Shown here: positions 1 to 6,862 of the stretch, one piece after another
Layout: each line of letters begins with the position of its first letter
Position numbering within the stretch: position 1 is the first letter of the stretch
Origin: a bacterium
GTDB lineage: Archaea > Nanoarchaeota > Nanoarchaeia > Woesearchaeales > UBA10216
DNA: 6,862 nucleotides
Assembly (NCBI GenBank): GCA_024206195.1
Contig: JAAGZO010001140.1
Span: forward strand, 1 to 6,862
Reading direction: 5' to 3'
Notes under the pieces: model-generated
Seen by the model: the letters and a program-made list of their open reading frames with translations, nothing else
What the model was told of the DNA's origin: nothing
The model's database searches: none
Translations under genes and position numbers: made by a program

Positions 1-602
1 ATGGCTGTAGTTACTAATATCTCACCACTAGAATTACCAAATTCATCTGGTAAAAGTATTAGCAAAGACCTGCCTATTTCATCTACGGTAACTGTAAAAT
101 CAGTACCACGAATTGCTATGTTTGCTGTTGGGGTTTTGAGATCTATATTGTTTTTATCTATCTTGTTTAGACCGCCAGTAATAAATCTAGCCGTACCAAG
201 ACCAAAGGTAATGGCCATTTTAGATTTGCTGGGGTTGGGGTCAAAGATGTATTCATCTATGGTGAGCTGTGAGTTTTCTGTAAGTCTTACTTTGGAGTCG
301 TCTAGGAACGTAATAGCCATACGACCATTAGTCGTAACTGCTTCATCATTTTGTTGTATATCAAAAGACTCTGTTGCCTTATAAGGCTTGTCTCTTAGTA
401 TTTGTGCTGAACCGTTTAGTTCAGATATATTTCCTATATCAACAGCTGGTGCTTGTTCCGCCATCGTTCTGAACGACACAAATAGTACCGTTAGAACCAG
501 TAGAGTTAATCTGTAGCCAATCAGAAGCAAGAGTTGACGACTGTACGATATTGAATGTTCTGCTGTTTCCTGTTTGGTCAAGATAGAAGTATCCACCTGC
601 AT
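1..602 (-). CDS. FecR-domain protein, probably exported; C-terminus cut by window edge
   Basis: Not recognisable from the plus strand; on the minus strand the frame is open from the stop at 623-621 to the window edge. Counting from the internal ATG at 464, residues 10-127 follow the FecR fold pattern: a Gly-containing strand (IGNISELNGSAQIL), a turn region with TTNGRMAITFLDDS, RLTENSQLTID, and the hallmark KTPTANIAIRGTDF at 110-123. FecR domains in iron-sensing systems are periplasmic signalling domains, but stand-alone versions occur in other exported proteins; no iron-sigma partner is visible here. The start is uncertain. ATG 464 would give a short overlap with the curlin gene but no signal peptide and no ribosome site. 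Upstream, the same frame encodes LTLLVLTVLFVSF followed by TMA/EQAPA, a good signal sequence. Starts including it are TTG 530 (no ribosome site) or ATG 602 (AGGAA at good spacing), which I chose. Domain confident, start not. Confidence 0.8.
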   Translation of the reverse strand, partial: MQVDTSILTKQETAEHSISYSRQLLLLIGYRLTLLVLTVLFVSFRTMAEQAPAVDIGNISELNGSAQILRDKPYKATESFDIQQNDEAVTTNGRMAITFLDDSKVRLTENSQLTIDEYIFDPNPSKSKMAITFGLGTARFITGGLNKIDKNNIDLKTPTANIAIRGTDFTVTVDEIGRSLLILLPDEFGNSSGEILVTTA

Positions 603-1173
603 ATCCGCTTCCTGTAAAGTTTACTGTATTGCTATCACCGTCTACATCCACATAGCTAGTAGCACTATCATAGTTTATATCAAAATCAAACGTGTTTCCG
701 TCTCCGTTAATTATCCAATCTAAATCAAGACCAGAAGCTAATGCTGTTGTACCTGTGTCTAGTGTAAATGTATTAGAACTACCAGTTACATCTACATTGT
801 AATCTGAGTTATCAATACCATAAGTATTTGTAGGATCAGCTTGTATAGTAAAGGTATTACTATCTCCATCAAACTCAAACAATCCTGTTACGCTATCTCC
901 GTATATATCACCTAAAAATTTATTAGTATTACCTATTTGGTTTATATCTAAGGTTAGATTAATGCCATCAAGATCAAATGCTGTTAGCGTTCCAGCAATA
1001 GAGTTTAAACCACCAATAATGTTAGATGATCCTAACTGTTCTAAGTCTATGTTTGCTGTGTTACCGCTTTGGTCAACATATATTTCATTGTCAGCTGCAT
1101 ACGCAGATAAACCAGCAAGGGTTAATCCCAATATGCTGTAGTAACTTATTATTCCTAAATCATTCTTGCTCAT
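439..1173 (-). CDS. Curlin-repeat (CsgA-like) secreted protein, strongly acidic
   Basis: A 244-residue protein from ATG 1173 (an adjacent TTG at 1176 is also possible). Residues 6-26 form a signal peptide ending AYA before ADNE. The rest carries about nine cores of the type (Q/D)-x-G-x-x-N, with their glycines near residues 37, 48, 81, 103, 131, 157, 179, 202 and 226. Most are spaced 22-28 residues apart, as expected for curlin strand-turn-strand units (canonical Q-x-G-x-x-N-x-A-x-x-x-Q). Several cores replace Gln with Asp (DGDSNTF, NGDGNTF). I count about 30 acidic and two basic residues in the mature part. Two cysteines near the end (232, 244) could pair. It follows CsgG with a 14-base overlap, so it is the likely cargo. 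An AGAGGA at 1192-1187 may serve as the ribosome site, 10 bases from the TTG and 13 from the ATG. Whether it forms amyloid is inference; it could be nucleator (CsgB-like) rather than major subunit. Confidence 0.82.
   Translation of the reverse strand: MSKNDLGIISYYSILGLTLAGLSAYAADNEIYVDQSGNTANIDLEQLGSSNIIGGLNSIAGTLTAFDLDGINLTLDINQIGNTNKFLGDIYGDSVTGLFEFDGDSNTFTIQADPTNTYGIDNSDYNVDVTGSSNTFTLDTGTTALASGLDLDWIINGDGNTFDFDINYDSATSYVDVDGDSNTVNFTGSGYAGGYFYLDQTGNSRTFNIVQSSTLASDWLQINSTGSNGTICVVQNDGGTSTSC
609..613 (-). promoter_or_regulatory. Candidate Shine-Dalgarno for the FecR-domain gene, inside the curlin gene
   Basis: The minus strand reads AGGAA six bases before the ATG at 602-600. It is the only convincing ribosome site near the possible FecR starts. 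It also encodes Thr-Gly-Ser of the curlin protein, so the match could be coincidental. Confidence 0.4.
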
Positions 1174-1981
1174 CAATATTCCAATATCCTCTTGTTGTTC
1201 CTTCTTTAATTGTTTCTAAAACAGCGGTTTCTATTGCTGTTTGTAGTGCTATATTGATTGACTCGTTCCTGACTAAACCGTTTTCTATTTCCACTAGTTC
1301 GGTATTGTCAGTAATAAAACGAAATATATCTTGATCGATAGATGCACTTAATATCGTTTTAGTTACTAATACTTCTAGTAACACTCTACCTGTACTTACA
1401 GATACAGTTCGTAAAGATATGGTTACGGTGTCTTGCTTGTATTGCCTAGACATTCCAATGCCTAAATACCTAGCGCCTGCACCCCCAGACTTTACATTAC
1501 TTTCGTATGATATCACGCCACCTTGCATTATCAAACCAGCAAACAATAAATCTGGTAACTTCTGCTTTTCTTTGTTTTGTTGCCTGGCGCTCCTAATGAT
1601 TTGTCGCTCTTTGGTTACATTGTCTAAACCAACACGCTCAACCACATCAAAGAAGCCATTATTACTACTGCCTGCGTGTTTTAAGGCTCTAATCAGGTAG
1701 GCATCTGGTGCCTGCGTTACCGCAGATGAAAAGGTTGCATAAGCACTATTGCTTCTTCTTTGTCCTGTTTGGTCTGTAAAAGAACCTTGATATATAGCTA
1801 CGACTGGCTTTACTTTGTTGTTTGATTTTATGTTTGCAAGTTCAGGTACAAGCAACGAGCCTATCGTTGGCTTTTCTATTTTTTGAATTGGAGGTAGATT
1901 ATTTTCTAACGGATCTATTATTAACGCGCAACTAGAAAGTAAAGCTACCGATAGGAAGAGATATAGTTGTCGTATTACCAT
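1160..1981 (-). CDS. csgG: CsgG-family outer-membrane curli secretion pore lipoprotein
   Basis: A 273-residue protein close in length to E. coli CsgG (277). In E. coli this lipoprotein forms a nonameric outer-membrane channel that exports curli subunits. Residues 1-17 are a lipoprotein signal with lipobox LSSC (Cys18); Ala at +2 fits outer-membrane sorting. The family core is clear: DQTGQ (70-74), FSSAVTQAPDAYLIRALK (84-101), ER-x-G-L near 115-119, ERQIIRSAR (125-133), YESNVKSGGAGARYLGIG (159-176), SVSTGRVL (194-201) and KTILSASIDQDIFRFI. Against E. coli memory, Phe56 of the mature protein (channel constriction) is kept as Phe84, while Asn55 corresponds to Thr83 and the Tyr51 position is displaced. 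The protein ends soon after TRGYW, so the E. coli C-terminal tail is missing. The start overlaps the CsgF gene by 50 bases and has no visible ribosome site, but no later start preserves the lipobox; translational coupling is likely. Confidence 0.95.
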   Translation of the reverse strand: MVIRQLYLFLSVALLSSCALIIDPLENNLPPIQKIEKPTIGSLLVPELANIKSNNKVKPVVAIYQGSFTDQTGQRRSNSAYATFSSAVTQAPDAYLIRALKHAGSSNNGFFDVVERVGLDNVTKERQIIRSARQQNKEKQKLPDLLFAGLIMQGGVISYESNVKSGGAGARYLGIGMSRQYKQDTVTISLRTVSVSTGRVLLEVLVTKTILSASIDQDIFRFITDNTELVEIENGLVRNESINIALQTAIETAVLETIKEGTTRGYWNIDEQE

Positions 1982-2456
1982 CTGAGTCAGTTATGTTTAA
2001 AGTTATAATTCCGTCTACAACATTATACTCTATAGTATTTCCTTCTAAACTTAAAACACCACTATCACTTGGAGTTTCACCAAATAAATTTTCTACAAGC
2101 TGTCTTGATAGTTGTGCATAGATTCTTGACTCTAGGTTTCTTATAAATCTTGCAAGAGTGGTGTTTTCTTTATCTCTTTCTATCTCTTCTTGTAATGCTT
2201 TTATTTCTGCTTTAAGCGCTTGCTTCCGATTGAACTGTTGGTTTTCTATGGTTAGATAATGTGCAGATGTGCCTACACCAGAGAATGATGGAGACTTAAA
2301 TTTATGTACCATCTCGTCTGCATTTAAGCTTTGACCAATAACCATTAAAAACATTATTGCACCCATAAAACAACACCATATAGCTATTCTAGTTTTAGCA
2401 GCTTCTTCTTGTTCTATTTCTCTTCTTGCAAGTTTTCTTTTATCCACACTTGCCAT
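1932..2456 (-). CDS. csgF: CsgF-family curli assembly factor with N-terminal membrane/signal segment
   Basis: A 174-residue protein; E. coli CsgF has 138. Three blocks match the family. FKSPSFSGVG (53-62) corresponds to the E. coli segment FRNPNFGGNP that inserts into the CsgG channel. LARFIRNLESRIYAQL (101-116) corresponds to the helix LDNFTQAIQSQILGGL. The end (140-172) matches the strands ending VTDRKTGQTSTIQV, here NITDSDGNTTTISL. In E. coli CsgF sits on CsgG at the cell surface and helps couple secretion to nucleation. Here a charged stretch of 23 residues precedes a hydrophobic segment (24-41) and a possible cleavage site after SLNA (43-46). Residues 71-98 form a charged, probably helical insert (KAEIKALQEEIERDKE) not in the E. 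coli protein. The ATG overlaps the upstream stop by one base (TAATG) and follows AAGGAAGGA, so this start is well supported. It directly precedes CsgG. Confidence 0.9.
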   Translation of the reverse strand: MASVDKRKLARREIEQEEAAKTRIAIWCCFMGAIMFLMVIGQSLNADEMVHKFKSPSFSGVGTSAHYLTIENQQFNRKQALKAEIKALQEEIERDKENTTLARFIRNLESRIYAQLSRQLVENLFGETPSDSGVLSLEGNTIEYNVVDGIITLNITDSDGNTTTISLPIGSFTF

Positions 2457-2806
2457 TAGTCCTTCCTTTTATCTTTTCTTCCTGCTTTGGCAATCTTGTT
2501 AGTGTCAATTAACTGAGGTACGCCTAGCATTGTTTTAATCATAGTATCTTGTCTAATGATTTCATTATCCAAAGACCTAACTCTATCTATTAATGCTACT
2601 AGAATACCGTGTTGTGTGTCTAGTTTTGTGCCAAGGCGATCTTCCATGGCGTTTATGGATGTGTTGACTTTATCATCTACGGTATCAAGTTTAGTCTCCA
2701 TACCGTCAATGATTCTGTTGATAAGTTTCCAAACAAAAACACCAAGGCCTAGCGCTGCGGCAATAGGAAATCCTAGTTCGGTTATAAGAACTACGACATC
2801 ATTCAT
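2456..2806 (-). CDS. Small single-span membrane protein with helical tail; possible holin
   Basis: A 116-residue protein. Residues 3-29 are hydrophobic (VVVLITELGFPIAAALGLGVFVW), giving one membrane span with a short outside N-terminus. Residues 30-95 are polar and helix-prone, with spaced hydrophobic positions (DTVDDKVNTSINAMEDRLGT) suggesting a coiled coil. The tail is basic (KAGRKDKRKD). Small one-span proteins with a cytoplasmic coiled coil occur as holins or holin-like proteins of the BhlA/UviB kind, and phages often place the holin among late genes. No endolysin or spanin is seen in this window, so the lysis role is inference from size, topology and position. No clear ribosome site precedes the ATG, which lies three bases after the stop of the 49-residue gene. 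Its own stop overlaps the csgF start (TAATG), tying it by translation to the curli module; it could also serve that module. Confidence 0.6.
   Translation of the reverse strand: MNDVVVLITELGFPIAAALGLGVFVWKLINRIIDGMETKLDTVDDKVNTSINAMEDRLGTKLDTQHGILVALIDRVRSLDNEIIRQDTMIKTMLGVPQLIDTNKIAKAGRKDKRKD
2460..2468 (-). promoter_or_regulatory. Shine-Dalgarno for csgF
   Basis: The minus strand reads AAGGAAGGA, with the first AAGGA seven bases before the ATG at 2456. It supports the early start and so the 23-residue charged stretch ahead of the membrane segment. It lies within the end of the upstream membrane-protein gene. Confidence 0.75.
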
Positions 2807-2809
2807 GGT

Positions 2810-2959
2810 TTACTTTTTTTTCTTAGCTGTTTTCTTAGCTTTCTTAAAAGCTTTAGCTGTAGGTGCGCCCTTAGTTCCAGGCTTTCTCATTTTTTCATTA
2901 GAACCAGCTTTGATTCTTTTTCTTTTAGCGTGGATGTTTGCGTATAGTCCTTTTGGCAT
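2810..2959 (-). CDS. Small lysine-rich protein, 49 residues, function unknown
   Basis: Starts MPKGLYANIHAKRKRIKAG and ends in a Lys-rich tail (KKAKKTAKKKK). It has 19 Lys/Arg against a single acidic residue and no membrane segment. The motif MPKG-YANI followed by a basic stretch and EKMRKPGTKGAPTA is one I associate with short uncharacterised proteins in marine phage late regions; no function is known to me. A strong ribosome site (AAGGAG, six bases before the ATG) supports translation and fixes the start. It lies ten bases after the 85-residue gene and three bases before the membrane-protein gene. Its charge suggests nucleic-acid binding, perhaps in the capsid, but this is inference only. 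Confidence 0.8.
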   Translation of the reverse strand: MPKGLYANIHAKRKRIKAGSNEKMRKPGTKGAPTAKAFKKAKKTAKKKK

Positions 2960-2964
2960 AGTTA

Positions 2965-2971
2965 TCTCCTT
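2965..2971 (-). promoter_or_regulatory. Shine-Dalgarno for the 49-residue gene
   Basis: The minus strand reads AAGGAGA, whose AAGGAG core ends six bases before the ATG at 2959. It overlaps the TAA stop of the preceding 85-residue gene and is the best ribosome site in the window. Confidence 0.8.
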
Positions 2972-3227
2972 ATTTTCTTCTTGATTTAGCTCCAGAACAT
3001 TTCCATCTTTTTCTTGATAGATTGTTTGGAGTGTTGGGATCGTTTTGTTTTTTCTTAGATAGTCTTTTCTTTATACCAAGACTTCTAGCGCAATATGAAT
3101 CACCTTTAGATGTTCCTGGCTTAACTCTAGGTCCACCACCTTTGGCTTTACCTGCTTGGCCGTAACTTACCTTTTTACCAGATGCAGTTACTTTGACTTT
3201 TGCTTTCCCTCTTCTTGGTGTTGCCAT
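2970..3227 (-). CDS. Small basic phage protein, 85 residues, with two conserved-looking cysteines
   Basis: Starts MATPRRGKAKVKVTASGKK and continues with GQAGKAKGGGPRVKPGT, GDSYCARSLGIKKRL, NDPNTPNNLSRKRWKCSG. It has 27 Lys/Arg and only two Asp. The order GDSYCARS-x-GI then P-N-x-P-N-N-L-SR-x-x-W-x-C-x-G-x-K-S is a signature I recall from small uncharacterised proteins in marine phages and some bacteria; it may match a Pfam family of unknown function, which I cannot name with certainty. Cys46 and Cys77 might bind metal with other ligands, but there is no classic zinc-finger spacing. No signal peptide or membrane segment. The ATG overlaps the stop of the 42-residue gene by one base (TAATG). A structural or DNA-binding role is possible from charge and position. 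Confidence 0.85.
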   Translation of the reverse strand: MATPRRGKAKVKVTASGKKVSYGQAGKAKGGGPRVKPGTSKGDSYCARSLGIKKRLSKKKQNDPNTPNNLSRKRWKCSGAKSRRK

Positions 3228-3355
3228 TATTTCTTCTTCCTTGGTCTACCTCTTTTTTTAACAACTGGTGCTGGTGTCATAAGATTATCAAACCAGTTTA
3301 AAAATTTATGTATCGTTTCTTTTAACCATACCCATGCTTTAGTTATATATTTCAT
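3227..3355 (-). CDS. 42-residue protein with C-terminal AT-hook-like motif
   Basis: Short gene encoding MKYITKAWVWLKETIHKFL at the start, an amphipathic, Trp-rich helix that might touch a membrane or a partner protein. It then has a Pro-rich linker (TPAPVV) and the tail KKRGRPRKKK (33-42). The Arg-Gly-Arg-Pro core flanked by Lys/Arg is the AT-hook signature, which binds the minor groove of AT-rich DNA; a motif this short can occur by chance. Evidence that it is a real gene is the context: its start and stop overlap both neighbours by one base as TAATG, and GAGAGGA lies ten bases before its ATG. Function unknown; AT-hook role inferred. Confidence 0.72.
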   Translation of the reverse strand: MKYITKAWVWLKETIHKFLNWFDNLMTPAPVVKKRGRPRKKK

Positions 3356-3567
3356 TAGTGTATTGTCCTCTCTTCATAATATATGATTTCAGAATCTTTG
3401 TTTACTTCACCGCCTGACATAACCGACATAATTTGTAATGCGTGGTTTTTATTTTTTGCTCTTATTTCTTTACCTACATAAACCATGTCATCTACCATAA
3501 CTTCAATATCAAATATTTTGTTGTGGGCCATTGTTTGTAAATAATCCTTGAGCTTGAGCTTTTGCAT
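3355..3567 (-). CDS. Small conserved-looking phage protein, 70 residues, function unknown
   Basis: The frame begins MQKLKLKDYLQT and has a second Met at residue 13 (position 3531), after which a compact sequence follows: NKIFDIEVMVDDMVYVGKE, then KNKNHALQIMSVMSGGEV and SEIIYYEERTI. The pattern of two strands, a helix and a strand suggests a small alpha/beta fold. No motif that I recognise. The start at 3567 has AAGGA ten bases upstream and overlaps the portal gene by 59 bases. The start at 3531 has AAGGA only at 13 bases but a 23-base overlap, and begins where the compact part begins. I list the longer form without firm preference. Its stop overlaps the next ATG by one base. Confidence 0.72.
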   Translation of the reverse strand: MQKLKLKDYLQTMAHNKIFDIEVMVDDMVYVGKEIRAKNKNHALQIMSVMSGGEVNKDSEIIYYEERTIH

Positions 3568-5662
3568 TTTGTCTTATTCCTTCTCTATCTCGTTCCATAA
3601 CTGCATTAATTTCTGCAATGTTTATTTGTGCGCCGTACTTAGCTTGTAGCTCCATAGCTTTTACTCTTAGTTGTGCTTCTTCTATATCTCTTTGTCTGTC
3701 ATCGTCCATGATGATTTTCATTCTATCTGTTTCAGCATCAATCATAGCTTTCTGTGCGCTTACTTGTGCCTTCATTGCTTCAGCCTGTGCAAGCATTTCT
3801 GCTGCATCTGGTTTAGGTGGCTCTTGCGGTTGCGGAGGCATAGGCGGAACTTCTGTATTCACAAAGGATTGTGCATCTTGGAAGCCTGCTAGCTCGATCA
3901 TTCTTGTTAGGGTGTTAGCATATTGTTGCATTGACACTAGAGGATTCTGTGGCCCTAGTGTTTGCATAATTTGTTCTTGCTTTGAAGCCAAGCCAGTTAA
4001 GACTTGGAACTTCTCTTCGTCTGATGACTTAGATATAGCTACATTGACTACCATATCCTTGTCTGAGTCCCAATATCTTGGGTCTACAGGTATAAATTTA
4101 CCGTTTAATCTAAAGACATCTTGTGCTTCTTGGTGCTTGATTACCAAGTTATTGACTGTTTTAAACATGGTTTTTAAGCCACCTTCAGCAAAATGTCTGC
4201 ATATAAGCTCTACTCTACCTTGCGCACCGCTCATAGTAGCTGATATAGCTGCGGAAGTTGTAGATTGTAAAGCTTCTGCGTTTAGTCCTGCACTTGCTTT
4301 AGATACACCAGTTCTGTTTTCTTTGGCTTCGTCTAAATATCCTAGGACTGGGAAAGCTTCTTTACCAACAAAAGGTACAGCAAATGGTTGTACCATTCCT
4401 GGCGCTCTCATTCTAATTGGCTGACCAATATCTGTATTGAGTACATCGTCTATGTTTACTTGACCCTCAACAACTCCCATTCTTGGGAAGATTGAATGAC
4501 CAAGAGAATCTAGGGTATCACGCATAATTTGTGATTTAGCCGCTTGTATTGGTTTTAAGTAATCAGCAGGACAAGATCCTATTGCTGTGTGTGGTTCTGG
4601 GTCAGGACAGAACATACATATAGGCAGTTCGTCTAATGGTTCTACATTAAGAACTTCTAAGCCATTACCTGCTGTGCAAACTTTGATTCGCTCATCAATA
4701 CCATCATCGTCATAGTCATAGTATAAATAATGCTCTACATATAAAACATCTTTACCACCAGCATCGTTTCTATCTGGGTATACCATGTTGTCAAATGGGT
4801 TTCTTGCTTCTTGTTCTTCGTAGCTTTCTGGGTCAAGTGCGCTGCCGCCATAACCTGCATACTGTTCCATCTCTTCTTGGTCGTAGCCCATAGCTACTAG
4901 GTCGGACACAGATTTAATCATGCGGTGTGCAACGTAAGAAGCTGTCTCTATATCGCGCGCGTGTCTAGATATAAGCACCTCTTCTGGCGGTACTGATTCA
5001 ATACATACCTGGTCTTTTGGTTTTAATCTTCTAATTTTTAGATCATAACTTGCTGGTATTTCTTGGGTAACTTCTTCGCCAGTCATAGGGTCCATAGTTA
5101 TGATTGTTTCGTTGGTGACTGACTCTTCTATGACCTCTACGTTCTTATCCATGATTAATGCTTGGTAAGATTGTGGGTCTATGTTGGTAAATTCGTGGGT
5201 TGTTGCAGTTACGCTGTCATCCCAAAATACTTTGACAAAACCAGTCTTTCTGACTAACGCATCTTTAAAAACGTCATACAAAACTTGGAAACCAGGATTC
5301 TTTTGTTGTATGACATAGTTAATATAATCTGTTTGTTGTTGTGCAACCTCTATATCTTCTGGTCCTTTAGGTACAAATTCAACAATCTTTTTAGTACCAA
5401 AGAAAGTACGCATAATTGATGGCAACATAAACAAAACACTTTCTCGCACATCTGTAGAAACAAACTCTGACTGCATAGAGCTAGTGCCTTCTGGCTCTGT
5501 ACCAAGGTAATATTCTGTTGATTCAGCTCTTTCTGCGCCTACTTGGTGTATGAAATCTTTAGCATCATCCATCTCGGACTTAATCACGCCCACAAGATCA
5601 ATCATTTCTCCTTCTTCTTGGACGACTGCTTTTATTTCTTCTTCGTTGTACTTCTTTGCCAT
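3509..5662 (-). CDS. Phage portal protein, P22-like
   Basis: A 717-residue protein directly after the terminase, where tailed phages usually have the portal: the dodecameric ring at one capsid vertex through which DNA is packaged and ejected. The sequence matches my memory of P22-type portals of marine podophages. The N-terminal region has VRESVLFMLPSIMRTFFG and QQQTDYINYVIQQKNPGF, and there is a wing-like acidic part (YYDYDDDGIDERIKV). The core has LGHSIFPRMGV and ENRTGVSKASAGLNAEAL-x-x-T. After a Pro-rich linker (606-618, MPPQPQEPPKP) comes a long Ala/Gln/Glu-rich helix (about 619-705), resembling the C-terminal barrel helix of P22-type portals. The ATG at 5662 has AGGAT five bases upstream and lies three bases after the terminase stop. 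Length and content look intact. Confidence 0.92.
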   Translation of the reverse strand: MAKKYNEEEIKAVVQEEGEMIDLVGVIKSEMDDAKDFIHQVGAERAESTEYYLGTEPEGTSSMQSEFVSTDVRESVLFMLPSIMRTFFGTKKIVEFVPKGPEDIEVAQQQTDYINYVIQQKNPGFQVLYDVFKDALVRKTGFVKVFWDDSVTATTHEFTNIDPQSYQALIMDKNVEVIEESVTNETIITMDPMTGEEVTQEIPASYDLKIRRLKPKDQVCIESVPPEEVLISRHARDIETASYVAHRMIKSVSDLVAMGYDQEEMEQYAGYGGSALDPESYEEQEARNPFDNMVYPDRNDAGGKDVLYVEHYLYYDYDDDGIDERIKVCTAGNGLEVLNVEPLDELPICMFCPDPEPHTAIGSCPADYLKPIQAAKSQIMRDTLDSLGHSIFPRMGVVEGQVNIDDVLNTDIGQPIRMRAPGMVQPFAVPFVGKEAFPVLGYLDEAKENRTGVSKASAGLNAEALQSTTSAAISATMSGAQGRVELICRHFAEGGLKTMFKTVNNLVIKHQEAQDVFRLNGKFIPVDPRYWDSDKDMVVNVAISKSSDEEKFQVLTGLASKQEQIMQTLGPQNPLVSMQQYANTLTRMIELAGFQDAQSFVNTEVPPMPPQPQEPPKPDAAEMLAQAEAMKAQVSAQKAMIDAETDRMKIIMDDDRQRDIEEAQLRVKAMELQAKYGAQINIAEINAVMERDREGIRQNAKAQAQGLFTNNGPQQNI

Positions 5663-5665
5663 ACT

Positions 5666-6862
5666 TTATCCTATTCTAATTATTTTAGATTTGAGCGGTT
5701 GTCTGAAATTATAACCTAAAAAGCTAGTGCTTCCACCAAAACTTGCAGCAGAGGATGCCATCGTCAGCGCGAGCGCATCCGCCTTGTCTGGAGACTTAAT
5801 TCCACGCTTACGCATTTCGTCTTTGCTCTCAATCTTGATTTTACCTGTAGACGTATATTTATACAAAGGCGATGCTAGTTCTGCGACCAACTCATCATCG
5901 TGCGGAATCCTGCAATCTCTTTGCACCAACCAGTCTTTAATCGCAAACCATAATTCAGCGCGCAAGTTTAAATAATTTTTCTTGCTTGATGGTGCCTCCG
6001 CGACATTGACTCCGCGCACTGGTAAGTTCTGCTCCGCGAGTCTATCCACCACGCCTGCGCCCAAACCAATCACATCAATTAATATTTCTTGTGGCCTTTC
6101 TATCGCAGTAGATTCGTCATACATATTCTTAATCACACCACATAACTGCATCAAATCCATAGACTTAAACGACTTAATACTCATGACATGGTTTCCCTGC
6201 CTCACACATAGCGCGGAGTTATCTCCGCCGAATCGTGCGACATCCAGTCCCCATATAATAGGTGCGTTAGCTGCAAGAGAGACATCCCTATCAACCGCTG
6301 CTTTTACCAAGCCCATTGGTATGACAGTATCATCGTCTGCGGATGGAAACTCGCCCATCACCTCCACGCGCGCGACTGTGGAATCTTCGCCGTACTGCTC
6401 AATCATCGTTTGAAAGAGCTTTTGGTCGGTGCCTTCTACCGTGCGCGAGTCTATCTGCTCGTTCTTCCAGAATGATTGCTTAGAGTTAAAGCTGTCGTAG
6501 AATGGCCCTGTGTTTCGGCGTGGGTTGGAGAAAGTAAACCAATAGCGGTCGCGCGTGGGTTCGGAGAAGAACCCTTCGCTGACCGAATAAATAGGAGAAG
6601 GAATACCTGATGCTTCATCCATTATCAAGCATACGCCGTAAGATGAATGGATGCCTGCAAACGCATCTGGGTTTTCCTCGCTCCATAACTGGGCCTGCGC
6701 GTAATAATAACCAGTATCAATCTTTAGGTCGTTTATTAGCGCATCTTCAAACCATTGTGCTGGTTTAATTGTGGTAGCTGTCTTGGTAAACCAATGAGAG
6801 TTAATAGATAGTGTTAGCCACTTACCAAGTTCAGCCCATGTTCTTGAACGAAGCTGTTGCTC
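5666..6862 (-). CDS. terL: Terminase large subunit, N-terminus cut by window edge
   Basis: The frame is open from the window edge to the stop at 5666 and gives 398 residues. Terminase uses ATP to pump DNA into the procapsid through the portal and cuts the concatemer. The fragment starts after the Walker A loop. CLIMDEASG (78-86) is the Walker B strand with catalytic Glu83, and FSNP (111-114) is the coupling motif. The RNase H-like nuclease follows, with three acidic positions: GLDVARFGGD (Asp207, Asp214), ILIDVIGLGAGV (Asp263) and SPDKADALALT (Asp362). An apparent start at 6628 is a TTG inside Walker B and is not the true start. Parts of the gene are visibly richer in GCG/CGC than the rest of the window. 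Family placement (P22/T4-type fold) is by motif; the packaging strategy cannot be read from this fragment. Confidence 0.95.
   Translation of the reverse strand, partial: EQQLRSRTWAELGKWLTLSINSHWFTKTATTIKPAQWFEDALINDLKIDTGYYYAQAQLWSEENPDAFAGIHSSYGVCLIMDEASGIPSPIYSVSEGFFSEPTRDRYWFTFSNPRRNTGPFYDSFNSKQSFWKNEQIDSRTVEGTDQKLFQTMIEQYGEDSTVARVEVMGEFPSADDDTVIPMGLVKAAVDRDVSLAANAPIIWGLDVARFGGDNSALCVRQGNHVMSIKSFKSMDLMQLCGVIKNMYDESTAIERPQEILIDVIGLGAGVVDRLAEQNLPVRGVNVAEAPSSKKNYLNLRAELWFAIKDWLVQRDCRIPHDDELVAELASPLYKYTSTGKIKIESKDEMRKRGIKSPDKADALALTMASSAASFGGSTSFLGYNFRQPLKSKIIRIG
5668..5672 (-). promoter_or_regulatory. Shine-Dalgarno for the portal gene
   Basis: The minus strand reads AGGAT five bases before the portal ATG. 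It lies at the very end of the terminase gene and overlaps its stop codon, so portal synthesis is probably coupled to terminase translation. Confidence 0.65.

Follow-up and report, generated by a model that had tools for sequence, protein, structure and literature searches.

A phage curli-like secretion cassette and its possible coupling to a FecR/CHASE2 cyclic-nucleotide sensor

The window analyzed here, positions 1 to 6,862 of contig JAAGZO010001140.1 (39% G+C), carries phage genes followed by a set resembling the curli (type VIII) secretion genes of bacteria. In minus-strand order these are a partial terminase gene, a portal gene, four small open reading frames (ORFs), a gene for a transmembrane (TM)/coiled-coil protein, CsgF, CsgG, a curlin-like gene and FecR (Table 1). 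The original prediction, made from the window alone, had placed CsgF, CsgG, a curlin-repeat cargo and a FecR-domain protein on one strand, directly after terminase, portal and a holin-like gene. Pfam searches bore out CsgF, CsgG and FecR on that strand, and the genes from CsgF to FecR are indeed contiguous and overlapping, although the four small ORFs separate the portal gene from the holin-like gene. The overlaps are 1 base between the TM/coiled-coil gene and CsgF, 50 between CsgF and CsgG, 14 between CsgG and the curlin-like gene and, depending on the FecR start chosen, up to 164 between the curlin-like gene and FecR. The FecR domain scores above its Pfam cut-off, but the protein is incomplete, its C-terminal half lying outside the window.

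The window's CsgG matched the solved E. coli CsgG over nearly its full length (E = 5e-42). A lipobox-like motif lies near the start of 76 of the 78 CsgG ORFs longer than 200 amino acids, and with Cys18 of LSSC, which we take to be the lipid-attachment residue under the lipobox rule, the window's protein is a predicted lipoprotein. If, as we presume, Phe, Tyr51 and Asn55 form the constriction of E. coli CsgG, the window's copy keeps the Phe, has Asn and Thr at the positions of Tyr51 and Asn55, and carries one inserted residue; the narrowest part of its pore may differ from that of E. coli. An alignment of CsgF had no match among PDB sequences at E ≤ 0.001. CsgE (PF10627), which the original prediction had found missing from the window, is also missing farther afield, with no match at E ≤ 1 in any of 14 records (12 of them IMG/VR records, possibly fragments) under conditions in which the E. 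coli control matched. Its absence could leave the pore ungated, and uptake of nutrients or large molecules by the infected cell has been suggested (PMC7029224, PMC9599517). Uptake would nonetheless leave the conserved cargo, CsgF and FecR genes unexplained, and we consider it quite improbable.

The exported protein encoded after CsgG appears to be rightly called curlin-like, though the call is weak by profile. The whole protein had no match to PF07012 at E ≤ 1, and its N-terminal half reached 18.4 bits against a cut-off of 20.7. We make the call because the Q-x-G(-x-x-N) positions are invariant across 23 aligned cargo sequences and because the homologue in the myophage Melnitz, which is 30% identical, passes the cut-off at 26.0 bits. 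The predicted curlin-repeat cargo thus stands on its repeat positions and its Melnitz homologue but not on the window protein's own score, and because that score is below the Pfam cut-off we name the protein curlin-like rather than CsgA. Cysteines occur at positions −13 and −1 from the C terminus (window 439–480) in 58 of 59 podophage-type copies, the remaining copy being cut by the end of its locus, and myophage cargos have cysteine pairs at other positions. E. coli CsgA has no cysteine, and such stapling at one end is not what one would expect of a curlin.

An AlphaFold2 model of the cargo was all-beta, with a predicted local distance difference test score (pLDDT) of 74.6, and VIA-align aligned it with parallel beta-helices, with no curli chain among the 50 entries listed; we therefore describe the cargo as a predicted beta-solenoid. 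Such a fold would also suit a secreted adhesin or decoy that is not amyloid and that the pore exports to block or capture receptors, an explanation that overlaps the one we favor below and departs from it only over what kind of protein the cargo is. The two cannot be told apart by the fold, since curli subunits have also been modelled as beta-solenoids, and Foldseek found nothing better than E 0.09 for the model. We regard the adhesin or decoy as unlikely, while granting it real weight. The second cargo gene of HTVC008M (L079:7558-8883) encodes curlin repeats together with a PA14 domain, which suggests a fibre subunit whose head binds carbohydrate.

A scan with the window's CsgG, with hits confirmed by tblastn, identified 78 viral loci in IMG/VR. 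Counting for each gene only the loci with room for it, no locus lacked CsgF (62 of 62), the TM/coiled-coil gene (56 of 56), curlin (77 of 77) or a cyclase gene following FecR (63 of 63), and FecR was present in 76 of 77, with the proviso that these loci are mostly close relatives from one search and do not represent 78 independent events. The expected co-occurrence in other phages was thus found, the neighbors being nearly always kept. The sole FecR miss was L043, in which FecR and cyclase read as a single 985-amino-acid frame (L043:1588-4545) after a 2-base difference at their junction; seen in one contig, the frame is either a genuine fusion or an artefact of sequencing. The TM/coiled-coil gene and CsgF are visible at the far end of L043, and in another locus (L072) several frames are broken. 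CsgF, CsgG, curlin and FecR were also kept together in five more distant loci, namely HTVC008M, Melnitz and three phage-like contigs in metagenome-assembled genomes labelled Maricaulis (L081), Flavobacteriaceae (L082) and Pelagibacter (L083). These three, which are likely to be phage contigs caught in bins, came from a scan of genome contigs that yielded five loci in all, the other two (L084 and L085) looking like bacterial csg loci. In every module gene the nonsynonymous rate was below the synonymous rate (dN < dS), which argues against a relic pore.

The danger that the window is a bacterial–phage chimera or a mis-assembly, raised in the original prediction, can be set aside, because many contigs run unbroken from the terminase large subunit (TerL) through the cassette to an endolysin. 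TerL of the window type, as represented by its relative L009, had no significant BLASTP match to the HTVC023P-type TerL of L083, whose nearest annotated matches were 023Pt_psg01, DSL-LC04, HTVC027P and HTVC023P (56–59%). Judged by these terminases, the cassette occupies at least two unrelated podophage-like backbones, in addition to those of myophages. A search of 12 IMG/VR records for TerL found the window type in eight, the L083 type in none and neither in four, which are possibly fragments; the podophage-like backbones carrying the cassette are probably more than two.

The module itself is not new. Wittmers et al. (2022) described a module in podophages and myophages among the pelagiphages with CsgF, CsgG and CsgA/B but no CsgE. 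One or two genes labelled 'histidine kinase' (HK) come before these, and after them come FecR, in many cases another CsgA/B, and adenylate cyclase; as uses of the module the authors proposed defence against superinfection, capture of siblings, import of cofactors and recombination (PMC9599517). Zaragoza-Solas et al. (2020) had described myophage pores together with an aggregation idea (PMC7029224). The view in the original prediction that this gene set had not been described as a functional unit is therefore superseded, its superinfection and aggregation ideas included, and its interpretation as a whole is partly supported. The order upstream gene–CsgF–CsgG–curlin–FecR–cyclase matches that of the pelagiphage module, with the cyclase seen in relatives of the window, which itself ends inside FecR. 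What the present analysis adds is a further phage backbone with the cassette, its terminase differing from the HTVC023P type; the extension of the CsgE absence to 14 records; a gene before CsgF with no kinase domain; and FecR read as the exported partner of a CHASE2-cyclase sensor. The window's close relatives also differ from the published module in having no second curlin gene between FecR and cyclase.

The Methylophilales phage Melnitz (MZ577097) and the pelagiphage HTVC008M (KC465899), whose CsgG proteins are 38% and 43% and CsgF proteins 43% and 41% identical to those of the window, share its gene order with a second curlin gene added; unlike the window phage, they are myophages and have two upstream TM/coiled-coil genes. 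The Melnitz paper states that csgA and csgB are lacking (PMC9004378), whereas the Melnitz record itself and Pfam searches show two curlin repeat proteins (L080:5845-6564 and 7623-8639) along with FecR and a cyclase of the CHASE2 kind. In the curli operons of bacteria (E. coli csg and alphaproteobacterial csgF–csgG–curlin) the genes for CsgF, CsgG and curlin-like proteins likewise adjoin or lie close to one another, but no FecR, cyclase or TM/coiled-coil homologue was recognized in the 16 kb read at csgF in three of five CsgF-positive genomes (289 searched), nor beside csgG in L084 and L085. A CsgG is also encoded in OR851715.1, a record of 1499 bases entitled 'Salmonella phage S.Kent 1-2-1', which is more probably a piece of a csg operon from a bacterium than part of a phage.

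The gene that follows FecR outside the window went unseen in the original prediction, which thereby missed that FecR is half of a FecR/CHASE2-cyclase pair. In L009 this gene matched CHASE2 at 88.9 bits (cut-off 26.3) and adenylate cyclase at 72.1 bits (cut-off 21.9), and its product in the window's relatives is a membrane adenylate cyclase whose CHASE2 domain is extracytoplasmic. Among the 78 cyclase ORFs longer than 400 amino acids, what we take to be the first metal-binding Asp motif was found in 76, the presumed transition-state motif in 75 and the second Asp, under a strict pattern, in 51. Searches of 142 Alphaproteobacteria genomes gave matches to the phage FecR in 50 and to CHASE2 in 67. 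Among the matches listed (120 FecR in 49 genomes and 149 CHASE2 in 65, with G003 excluded because its match lies on a phage contig), the two lay within 5 kb of each other in 25 of the 47 genomes with both, against 0.9 expected. A FecR/CHASE2 partnership has been reported for Campylobacterota cyclases and for a Burkholderia biofilm operon (PMC9239204, PMC5192318), and these bacterial pairs share with the phage pair an exported FecR-domain protein near a CHASE2 membrane sensor. Only in the phages did we find the pair joined to csgFG, and our search of open-licence PMC literature found no paper that brings together a FecR domain, curli and CsgG.

A FecI/FecR regulator carries an N-terminal anti-sigma domain beside its FecR domain, whereas Pfam searches of the full-length FecR proteins of L009, HTVC008M and Melnitz found the FecR domain only, with no N-terminal anti-sigma domain. 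The L009 protein has a TM-like hydrophobic segment at residue 24 and an export-signal-like N terminus, and the nearest NCBIfam matches, far under cut-off, were the surface proteins Lsa33 and LipL45, which we take to be from Leptospira. Wittmers et al. suggest that FecR is an iron-responsive regulator of the cassette (PMC9599517), a published reading with a genuine PF04773 domain behind it. In addition to the domain content and the surface-protein matches, we doubt it because of the export-like N terminus, the CHASE2 cyclase encoded next, the FecR–CHASE2 neighborhood in bacteria and the curlin-like tail described below. The phage FecR is probably not an iron regulator, a role to which we assign very little probability, and instead looks like the exported partner of a CHASE2 adenylate cyclase sensor. 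A sensor partner of this kind, possibly with a fibre-like tail, would replace the iron-regulation account with one that makes testable predictions.

The C-terminal end of the phage FecR contains two ψ-x-ψ-x-Q segments whose Gln residues are 20–23 apart. The pattern occurs in all 36 non-redundant complete phage copies without masked bases, a count that describes conservation rather than serving as an independent test, since the pattern was designed after viewing the tails and the copies are related (a 37th entry is the window's own truncated copy). The set includes HTVC008M and Melnitz, whose FecR proteins are 32–35% identical to that of L009, and the pattern was absent from all 11 complete bacterial FecR-domain homologues. 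Other protein groups had it at the C terminus only in myophage curlins (two of three); found anywhere, it occurred in 7 of 180 other proteins, 1 of 43 CsgG and 1 of 8 TM/coiled-coil entries, never C-terminally, and 1 of 39 window-type curlins matched it. Comparing the tail alignment by hhalign with podophage curlins (P 0.045), two myophage curlin groups (0.032 and 0.0072) and bacterial curlins (0.06) gave nothing significant; Pfam Curlin_rpt matched one of four tails (E 0.066), and the AlphaFold2 model of FecR was poor (pLDDT 47.9). With a non-significant profile comparison, a poor model and a post hoc pattern, homology of the tail to curlin is not established, and we treat the curlin-like tail as a lead. 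One speculative extension, which we think improbable, is that FecR acts as an export gauge, its tail entering the CsgG/CsgF channel or docking on the fibre while its FecR domain engages CHASE2. Cyclic AMP (cAMP) would then signal that export of a surface fibre is running and could time late infection or the lysis encoded nearby, and the phages would have assembled this gauge from a csgFG operon and a FecR/CHASE2 pair, both taken from bacteria.

Considering the locus and its relatives together, we lean towards a curli-like (type VIII) secretion cassette that the phage carries and that is coupled to cyclic-nucleotide sensing by FecR and CHASE2, a reading drawn from sequence comparison. CsgG would form an outer-membrane pore in the infected cell with CsgF seated on it, and the curlin-like protein would be exported through the two without CsgE, to coat or link the cell surface late in infection. 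The FecR protein would report the state of periplasmic or surface assembly to the CHASE2 cyclase, changing cAMP. The benefit to the phage, at a guess, would be an altered surface of the infected cell that keeps competing phages out or holds cells or progeny together; if fibres are made, phages would give curli-less hosts a new surface during infection. Several points weigh against this reading. CsgE is missing, the cargo lies below the Pfam curlin cut-off and has a predicted fold that also suits a non-amyloid adhesin, the surveyed loci are mostly close kin, and the cyclase is missing from L081. Buchholz et al. saw no visible clumping of Melnitz-infected cells and doubt that phage CsgF still pairs with CsgG (PMC9004378), and in the excerpts of open-licence phage curli literature we found no experiment on the function of the module.

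A further difficulty is the presence of lysis genes close to the cassette in three backbones. Window-type relatives have, directly after it, a 3-TM holin (PF11351, 64.0 bits) and then an M15 endolysin (PF08291, 52.7 bits), and a phage lysozyme lies one further gene beyond it in L081 (163.1 bits) and a few small genes downstream in L083 (168.2 bits). These neighbors, and the marginal holin similarity of the gene before CsgF, fit the hypothesis that Buchholz et al. (2022) put forward for the myophage pore (PMC9004378), in which CsgG, with CsgF, no longer exports fibres but has been turned into a channel that times lysis, a pore resembling a pinholin or a secretin. Other placements do not fit it: in L067 the cassette lies between tail-fibre-like genes (two with PF13884) and a virion protein, and in myophages it lies near genes for single-stranded-DNA-binding proteins. 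Moreover, lysis genes exist apart from the cassette; purifying selection acts on cargo, FecR and cyclase; and Melnitz encodes curlin repeat proteins, contrary to the premise of the argument. Because of the nearby lysis genes we raised our estimate for a lysis-timing channel slightly, to one that is still unlikely, and lowered slightly that for the sensor-coupled secretion cassette. No lysis gene was recognized beside the cassette in L067 and L050. In L067, L050 and L081 the gene that comes after the cassette encodes 160–161 amino acids; its product resembled a holin by eye, yet Pfam gave no holin match. The interval between cyclase and lysozyme in L083 (L083:11494-13014) holds a gene for a 131-amino-acid TM/coiled-coil protein, overlapped by one that carries a lipobox-like motif; by eye the two resemble an Rz/Rz1 spanin pair.

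The predicted holin-like gene before CsgF is present as a short TM gene, but its resemblance to PHROG holins is marginal (E 0.01 and 0.024). Its protein had 1907 relatives, and the named ones among the 120 listed were called 'hypothetical protein' or given coordinates only; Melnitz has two, of 92 and 115 amino acids, encoded directly upstream of CsgF. From position and copy number we infer that this is the gene labelled HK by Wittmers et al. Pfam and NCBIfam searches of the window's protein at E ≤ 1 found no kinase or ATPase family, and six upstream proteins of HTVC008M, Melnitz and L083 matched no kinase family in Pfam or, for four of them, NCBIfam. On these comparisons the published labels of HK for this gene and of iron regulator for FecR look doubtful.

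Table 1. Features of the window in minus-strand order
Feature	Position	Strand	Evidence and remarks
Terminase large subunit	5666..6862	-	5′ end beyond window; PHROG phrog_2, E 1.4e-35; best annotated match MW202483, 48%
SU10-type portal protein	3509..5662	-	PF23899, 635.9 bits; best listed annotated matches 43-44%, Manatee Spring records
Four small ORFs (70, 42, 85 and 49 amino acids)	2810..3567 (3355-3567, 3227-3355, 2970-3227, 2810-2959)	-	Between portal and 116-amino-acid gene; last two very basic
116-amino-acid TM/coiled-coil protein	2456..2806	-	One N-terminal TM-like segment, residue 5; rest coiled-coil-like (by eye)
CsgF homologue	1932..2456	-	PF10614, 65.2 bits (cut-off 25.8); export-signal-like hydrophobic N-terminal segment, residue 24
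CsgG homologue, predicted outer-membrane pore lipoprotein	1160..1981	-	PF03783, 161.9 bits (cut-off 20.8)
Codon of predicted lipid-attachment Cys18 of CsgG (LSSC)	1928..1930	-	Translation
Exported curlin-like protein	439..1173	-	Invariant Q-x-G(-x-x-N) positions; two C-terminal cysteines
FecR-domain protein, partial	3..602	-	PF04773, 42.3 bits (cut-off 24); export-signal-like N terminus; exact start uncertain

At the DNA level, no relative covering 80% of the window was found among annotated phages, and the 30 matches listed, out of 40 records, were confined to the two small basic ORFs. The lysine-rich 49-amino-acid ORF was the source of 29 of the 30, and the phages that matched it were those of Prochlorococcus, Synechococcus, Roseobacter and Pelagibacter.

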